Shown: in pieces, positions 54,535-57,500 of the stretch | How the letters are laid out: each line of letters opens with the position of its first letter | Numbering within the stretch: position 1 is the first letter of the stretch | NCBI RefSeq assembly: GCF_040954835.1 | Contig: NC_090699.1 | Coordinates: 17,601,817 to 17,665,816 of the forward strand | From: Lepisosteus oculatus | Lineage: Eukaryota; Chordata; Actinopteri; Semionotiformes; Lepisosteidae | DNA: 64,000 nt | Reading direction: 5' to 3' | Made by a program: the position numbers and the translations under genes | Notes under the pieces: generated by a model | Database searches by the model: none | The model's input: only the letters and a program-made list of their open reading frames with translations | Told to the model about the DNA's origin: nothing

Positions 54535-57500
54535 ATGAGGTTCCTGACTCTCTTAGCTGCTCTTGGGGCCCTGATCCTCTGCAGTGAAGCTGTAAGTAGA
54601 AAAGAGGAAGCACTGTTTCTCATGGTTTGTGCTGATGTCAAGACACTTTGAATGATAATTGAAGGTTCCTCTTTGGGAATTTGCTAAATTGACTGACGTT
54701 TTTTCTCAGGCATTAAATGCCACTTCTCTGCTCCTTAAATATCTTAACGAAAGACAACTCTTCCCTATAGCGTTTTCCAAAGTGAACTAGAAACAATCTC
54801 TTGCCTTGATATATGATTTTAAAAATAACATAAAAACTCAGCATAGCTTGAGTGAATCTATTGACAAAAGTCACATGCCAGACAGCAACTGAAAGAAAAG
54901 AGAAGAAATGCAGAAATTGCTTCATGTCTCCCAAGTTCATTACAGGACAGCATTAATCATCTCCCAGAACAGAGACCCAGGCCTATATGAACACTGCGTG
55001 CTAAGGTTCTGCTGACACAGGGTATTTTAATTTCAGTCTCCTATGTGTCTTTTCAACTCGAGTTTTGTCAGCAACAAAAACTAAATACAAACTCATACAA
55101 ATTAAGATGTTTTAAGTGGGGCTAAAACCCAGAATGAAAGCTGAGGATAAAACTGAGAAACTGGTGGCACCATACCACCCAGGGTAAATAAGGAGCCTAA
55201 TAGTACATCAGAAATGAAAGCTCATGGCAACAGCCAGCACTGTTCTTTGAAGGTTTTAATTTTGCAGGAGGTGATGAAGGCCGTGAAGGTTTTGCTGAGC
55301 AGAACACCTTTGTTTCACTTTCTTTCAGGCCCTATTGAGGGAAACAGCACAAGACATATATTCAGGGGAGGAAACAGGTAAATCAGCTCATTTAATTTCA
55401 CATACAGAACAATTTCACTCAGGTAGAATAACTGAAATCCTACATGCAGAGCTGCGCATGCTGCTGCATGATCAATGAAAAAAAAACACATTCTGAAGTG
55501 TCACTTCACTAACTTCGCCTTATTCAATGAGTTGCAAGTTGATCAGCCTTTAATTAACCTGAAGCAGCCTAGATTTTTACTGTTTTCAAAAAGGCAGATT
55601 TATGTAGTGTAATTAGTTAATTTTAGGTTTTGCTTCATTGCTACAAGATCACATGTTACTGCAGTGTTTGCATGTAACTATATTTCCACCTGCAACAAAA
55701 TTTCACATTATGTAAAATGGAAGCACTTAAAACGAAGATAATTTACTCTGAATCCTTAGGCACTGAGCTGCAGTTTTTAATAAGCTGTATCTTGGACTTT
55801 TTTTTAGGTGCTATTTGTTTGAATGGAGGCATTTCCAGCGCATACCAGTACAGCAACAAACACTTCGTCTGCCACTGTCCCAGGGACTTCAGTGGGAAAA
55901 ACTGTGAAATAGGTACAAGTCTTTAGGCCCTTTCTGCCCCTTTATTTCCCTGATTCTCTACTCATTTCCTGCTGTTTATAATTCTTCCTCTCCTCTGTCT
56001 GGGACACCTGGTCATTCTGCTAGCTGTTTGATATGCTACCCACACTGTGTGTTAAATACAAGACACTGTCTTTCAAGAAGTAATATTTAATTCAACAACA
56101 TTTCTCCCAGCTTTCCATTCATCCATTATGGAAGAGCTGGAGCTTATACCGGGTACAAGGCAGGATATACAGTACTTTCAATAGGACATTAGTCCATCGC
56201 ACACACTCACACAAGAGCAGCCACATTTTCTCAGAAGCCAGTTAACTTACCAGTATGTCTTTGGGCTGTGGGAGGAAACCCGGAGTACCCAGAGGAAACC
56301 CACATGAACAGGGGGAGAACATGCAAACTCCATACAGACAGCATCCCAGGAACTGAACCCAGCACCTCTGTACCGCGAGGCAGCAATGCTAACCACTCCT
56401 ACACTGTGCTGCCCTTCCTAGCTTTCCTCAAATGTCTAATTTCCTTCTTCTTGCCCAGAAACCTCAGCAAAGTGCTACAACGGAAATGGACAGAACTACC
56501 GAGGCACTGTTTCAAAGTCTCAGACTGGAAAGGACTGTCTGGAGTGGGATTATGAATCACTTGAAATTCTCTACCAGGCAGATGCATTAACCCTGGGACT
56601 TGGGAATCACAACTACTGCAGGTAATTAAGGAGAACAGCTCCTCATACACCCAGCGGCCATACTCACCACAGACAGAATGGTAAACATATCTCGGAACAG
56701 GACAAGATATCGTAAAAGTATCTCTGCGTGATATGTAGAGATACACATAACTTCAATTTTGTACATTCCTGGACCATCAGAACGCACATAGTTTAAACAA
56801 ATATTCTCTCACTGTTTGAGTGTGATTTGACCTCATTATTTTCCACTCAAGAGCAGCATGATCATCAATCTTGTCCTTTAAAAAAGAGCAGTCTCCTGCT
56901 TTCTAGAAACATGTCGTTAATTAAAAGGCATTTAATCCACAACTGCACAGCAAAAGAAAAGAGAAACAGGACAATGGCTTTTGGTTGTCTAGAAATACCA
57001 GATCTTACATTTCCTTTATGTACTCCATTTCATATTTCTAGACCATTCTTGACAGATGCAAGGGCATCGGCTTCAACTACATGGCTGGGTCGCTTGTTCC
57101 AGACCCCCACAAACCATAGTGATGTGCCTCATAATTACTATGCTGTCCTGTGGTTCATCTTTCACCTTAAATTCAGAAGATGTCCATTGGGTTAACTTTG
57201 TCAGTGTCTTTGAGGAGTTTGAATATGTGAATGTGGGGTTCTGGTATAGCTTATTACCAAATTCACACTCTTGAAACCTGTTGACTAACACAGCAGATAT
57301 GCTGACAGGATTTTGATGCTGTTTTGACGGGGAACTACTTCCACTCATGATCAAGAGGTTTGCCTAAAATAGGCCAACAATATCTCTGAAAGTCCACCAC
57401 AATATTCTTGCTCAAGATTCCTCTACATCCTCTTTTTGTGTCACACTGGTAATGCGTTTTCGCATTAAAGGAGAAACATATGCACATACATACATGCTAT

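Follow-up and report, generated by a model that had tools for sequence, protein, structure and literature searches.

A four-cysteine EGF-like module in the single-kringle PLAU gene of the gar Lepisosteus oculatus

When the EGF module of a urokinase lacks two of its six cysteines, is this the loosening of an older receptor contact, the decay of a domain on its way out, or a form that serves in its own right? The question is raised by PLAU, the gene of urokinase (uPA), a clot-dissolving enzyme whose EGF domain engages the receptor uPAR in mammals, in a stretch of 64,000 nucleotides from Lepisosteus oculatus (NCBI RefSeq assembly GCF_040954835.1, contig NC_090699.1, positions 17,601,817 to 17,665,816, forward strand), the whole of which is here called the window. 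The gene is very probably the single-kringle PLAU of ray-finned fish with a four-cysteine EGF-like module, as published for gars and teleosts; the two-cysteine loss in the uPA EGF has already been published in substance, and the gar exon is a rediscovery.

The EGF exon and its missing disulfide

The altered module is encoded by one exon, in which two codons stand where cysteines would be expected (C1 to C6 denote the EGF cysteines in order).

55808..55912, plus strand: EGF exon of PLAU, phase 1-1, with four cysteines, Ala at C1 and Ser at C3
55810..55812, plus strand: GCT (Ala) codon at the EGF C1 position, from codon reading
55834..55836, plus strand: TCC (Ser) codon at the EGF C3 position, from codon reading

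A first-pass annotation had placed a four-cysteine EGF exon here, with Ala for C1 and Ser for C3; gene model and codons confirm it, and its coordinates proved exact. Also as described there, the reading frame and splice sites are intact and the remaining four cysteines are kept: the exon has AG/GT borders (acceptor ACTTTTTTTTAG, donor GTACAAGT), is symmetrical – beginning and ending in phase 1 – and lies within a frame of 431 codons. It holds four of the six cysteines of the C1 to C6 order, short of the six-cysteine pattern. By the numbering that we assume for human uPA, the codon at 55810..55812 corresponds to Cys11 and that at 55834..55836 to Cys19. In the PDB alignment the C3 column has Ser in the window versus Cys in the rows of uPA 3laq and tPA 1tpg, which we take to be mouse uPA and human tPA. 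Both printed rows start at C2, so that C1 falls outside the aligned part; because no cysteine occurs between precursor residues 16 and 39, C1 is nonetheless absent under any alignment of the rows (residue 16 lies within the hydrophobic N-terminus, by inspection the presumed signal peptide).

In EGF domains C1 pairs with C3, and one entire bond is therefore missing. With both positions replaced, the earlier proposal that a single disulfide has gone as a unit agrees with what is found. The chain minus its presumed signal peptide contains an even number of cysteines, 22 (EGF 4, kringle 6, linker and protease 12). Under the same pairing, random loss of two of the six EGF cysteines would strike a bonded pair in 3 of the 15 combinations, and the pattern of paired loss is for this reason weak evidence when taken alone.

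How far does the module still match EGF? No EGF model is among the 4 Pfam families found in the PLAU protein at E<=1 (trypsin and kringle included). In a PDB search with the exon (66 distinct sequences, E 10 or below), EDIL3 (3.2e-6) and PVFP-5 (1.6e-4; presumably a mussel foot protein) were followed by uPA 3laq (2.1e-4) and tPA 1tpg (2.3e-4): two unrelated EGF proteins outrank uPA. Homology to EGF chains remains in the four-cysteine exon.

The missing Pfam call and the ranking of unrelated EGF proteins above uPA are what an artefact might produce, whether a wrong exon, a sequencing error or a PLAT paralogue mistaken for PLAU, but such an origin is scarcely credible. GCT at C1 is at least two base changes from any Cys codon, and a single miscalled base therefore cannot account for C1 (TCC at C3 is one change from TGC). 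The window holds no other one-exon EGF according to a six-frame cysteine-pattern scan, which is blind to an EGF divided between two exons. A separate PLAT-like gene exists in the same genome, and the cysteine pattern agrees with published accounts in the portions of text available (both described below). The six-frame scan for an alternative EGF exon gave 0 six-cysteine matches and 1 four-cysteine match, the latter being exon 55808-55912 itself.

The gene, its relatives and its neighbours

The EGF exon is the third of ten in a gene whose domains are arranged as follows.

54535..61344, plus strand: PLAU gene, ten coding exons, stop included (gene model; stop read from the sequence)
54535-54591, 55329-55377, 55808-55912, 56459-56621 and 57686-57783, plus strand: PLAU exons 1-5 (gene model)
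58373-58559, 59387-59538, 60019-60159, 60616-60764 and 61150-61344, plus strand: PLAU exons 6-10 (gene model)
56459..57783, plus strand: single kringle in two exons (PF00051, 74.3 bits)
58373..61344, plus strand: trypsin-type protease exons (PF00089, 207.7 bits; motifs FKIVGG, TAAHC, NNDIAL and DSCKGDSGGP)

The frame runs for 431 open codons from the ATG at 54535, with TGA at 61342-61344, and in the Pfam result a single kringle precedes the trypsin-type protease domain. Against uPA chains the protease region scores 252.9 bits (6nmb, query 158-417) and 247.3 bits (1sc8, query 160-417), compared with 242.2 bits against tPA 1bda (query 160-415), for which 1sc8 is the like-for-like partner; by these scores the region lies nearer uPA than tPA, with a modest margin. 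The top overall PDB match in the PLAU search is a plasminogen chain (303.8 bits), which has five kringles and a protease domain. The 37-loop of the protease (window 58468-58479, plus strand) reads QRSR where uPA has RRHR and is thereby less basic; the RRHR motif reportedly gives chicken uPA its PAI-1 sensitivity, to go by the title of a cited study.

Relatives were sought in the assembly of 1,200,105,466 bases (813 contigs). The sole match of the EGF exon below E 0.4 is the exon itself, with 6 further matches at E 0.43-0.92; this search is blind to a PLAU copy of the teleost type that has no EGF exon. Kringle matches number 47, and the 15 inspected are distributed over the window (2), C2:65.91 Mb (4), C1:40.85 Mb (2) and six further stretches (7). 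Among these 15 of 47 no second PLAU was found, the six further stretches giving only kringle-region matches to PLAU. At C2:65.91 Mb lies a PLAT-like gene with two split kringles, an EGF (CYLPRCYNGGTCKEAVYSSDFICQCLPGFTGPQC) with six cysteines, and protease exons; the presence of this separate gene rules out that PLAT has been taken for PLAU. A gene at C1:40.85 Mb has fn1, EGF and kringle with six EGF cysteines, and from this order of domains we presume it to be HGFAC. When PLAU, the PLAT-like gene and the putative HGFAC are compared, EGF cysteines are missing in PLAU only. Twelve minus-strand six-cysteine matches in the PLAT and HGFAC stretches were set aside as cysteine-rich simple repeats.

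Upstream of PLAU the window contains an IkB kinase (IKK) gene at 32631-36305 (minus strand), with a C-terminal-like piece at 24659-25024 (minus strand). One IKK exon scores 77.9 bits to IKK-alpha versus 65.9 to IKK-beta, and another 55.3 bits to IKK-beta versus 45.1 to IKK-alpha; the start of the gene and its LFENKPYT stretch favour, on our assumption, CHUK. In human, PLAT adjoins IKBKB, and PLAU beside CHUK would fit a pair of whole-genome-duplication twins with PLAT-IKBKB. No piece of an IKK gene was found in the 40 kb surrounding the PLAT-like gene, where the best match (E 0.78) proved to be AP-3 mu. An AP-3 mu exon (L027:2966-3448, minus strand; 108.8 bits to AP3M1) lies past the PLAT-like gene, roughly 9 kb away, at C2:65.92 Mb; human AP3M2 flanks PLAT, and human AP3M1 is near PLAU. 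The window also has exons of an erlin gene, in a stretch at 10667-11185 (minus strand; Erlin-2 38.3 vs Erlin-1 37.6 bits) and in a second stretch, recognized by eye, at about 16340-16693 (minus strand). Human ERLIN1 and CHUK are linked, like the erlin and IKK genes in the window.

Receptor contact and the published history

The first-pass annotation took the missing bond as a sign of relaxed or altered receptor binding. The residues of human uPA that form hot spots in uPAR are given as Tyr24, Phe25, Ile28 and Trp30 in the available text of PMC8417595, where the receptor-competent uPA sequence is also described as having arisen together with a change in uPAR. Between C2 and C4 the PLAU exon shows no length change relative to uPA, and the hot-spot positions, counted from C2, are Y, S, H and V in gar PLAU: three of the four differ from human, which fits a reading of no uPAR binding. 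Phe25 and Ile28, kept in the 3laq row, are both replaced. The O-fucose consensus Cys-x4-Ser/Thr-Cys, which we take to surround human Thr18, is gone as well. Mammalian-type uPAR binding by gar PLAU is not expected.

Is this the loss of something that the fish protein once had? The title of a 2012 J Biol Chem paper by Bager et al. states that teleost uPAs are without genuine receptor-binding EGF domains, and the paper reportedly describes zebrafish plaua as having no EGF domain and plaub as having the altered one. The accessible portion of Chana-Munoz et al. 2019 (PMC6337849) places the loss of two uPA EGF cysteines before the teleost-gar split, the bichir EGF being complete, and states that one of the two teleost uPA copies lost the EGF domain. 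The origin of the uPAR lineage is placed in the lungfish-tetrapod ancestor, and the lineage is confined to lungfishes and tetrapods (PMC6337849, same portion). Because of this placement "relaxed receptor binding" is probably backwards: the annotation's proposal holds in so far as a mammalian type of uPAR binding is not to be expected of the gar protein, while relaxation of a pre-existing receptor contact finds no support. The two lost cysteines of the published text are presumably C1 and C3, and we infer a single ancestral loss of the bond between them.

If the module were under relaxed drift, the EGF domain would be heading for loss, like that of the teleost copy without EGF. The symmetrical 1-1 exon could indeed be skipped without a frame shift, but it is still open and has good splice sites; moreover, in the published text, so far as available, the two-cysteine loss predates the teleost-gar split, a long span for drift. 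We regard this course as unlikely, although worth keeping in view. Alternatively, loss of C1-C3 may have freed the N-terminal loop to bind a partner other than uPAR, such as a fish surface protein or a matrix component. The intact exon, with the other four cysteines, the NGG turn and the C-terminal CEI all kept, is consistent with this, as is the knock-down of the zebrafish copies, where severe intersegmental vessel defects were seen in 28/35 embryos for plaub vs 0/36 for plaua (PMC8342626, available text). The contrast between plaub and plaua may, however, stem from expression, and the EGF domain is not singled out by it; no such partner turned up in the accessible portions of the literature on uPA (no search aimed at one was made): binding of this kind seems improbable. 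It would be a long shot that selection has kept the two-disulfide module as a stable form of the EGF fold that, in gars and teleosts, has a partner of its own other than uPAR; if true, ray-finned fishes and tetrapods tether uPA through unrelated contacts.

Several points weigh against the view that the gene is a single-kringle fish PLAU of the published kind, with a module that binds no uPAR. At the PLAT-like gene (C2:65.91 Mb) fn1 was not detected, the 13 fn1 matches in the genome falling on the sequences C12 (12) and C1 (1), and the PLAT name consequently rests on EGF, two kringles and protease exons. Likeness to other fish PLAU rests on published text, and that of PMC6337849, in the portion available, leaves unnamed which two cysteines were lost. 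The same portion lists matches to uPAR outside the lungfish-tetrapod lineage: a best-reciprocal match in the teleost Lates calcarifer, a three-LU gene that the authors attribute to recent duplication; two-LU genes in teleosts and coelacanth, the coelacanth gene being a best-reciprocal match too; and best-reciprocal matches in elasmobranchs. It further describes the chicken uPA EGF as receptor-competent although birds are without uPAR, and absence of uPAR hence need not bring loss of EGF cysteines. Lastly, the 3laq row reads Y, F, I and R at the hot spots: Trp30 is thus not universal, and with Arg at position 30 in 3laq, hot-spot differences alone are no proof of lost binding.

The module beside known urokinases

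Taking the gene as the single-kringle PLAU of ray-finned fish, the module would be a secreted one, its fold held by the C2-C4 and C5-C6 bonds, and this two-disulfide EGF remnant would most likely act as a spacer, or as a weak adhesion unit, ahead of the kringle. It would bind no uPAR, and plasminogen activation would take place in solution or via other surfaces. With the gar gene, resolved exon by exon and set beside a PLAT-like gene as internal control, a further assembled genome joins the case that the uPA EGF is not of mammalian form in all vertebrates; where fish serve as models of fibrinolysis and wound repair, the mammalian uPA-uPAR axis should not be presumed.

How, then, does gar PLAU compare with the systems already known? 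Compared by published text, the uPA of gars and teleosts is single-kringle and has an EGF minus two cysteines, as in PLAU here; no difference from it was found in the portion of that text available, which omits the positions of the lost cysteines. With the PLAT-like gene at C2:65.91 Mb, PLAU has homologous EGF, kringle and protease exons in common, whereas the former differs in its six-cysteine EGF and two kringles. With mammalian uPA it shares the order EGF-kringle-protease and, in the 3laq row, an equal C3-C4 spacing of 11 residues; unlike mammalian uPA, gar PLAU has both C1 and C3 replaced, and it departs from human uPA at three of the four uPAR hot spots.
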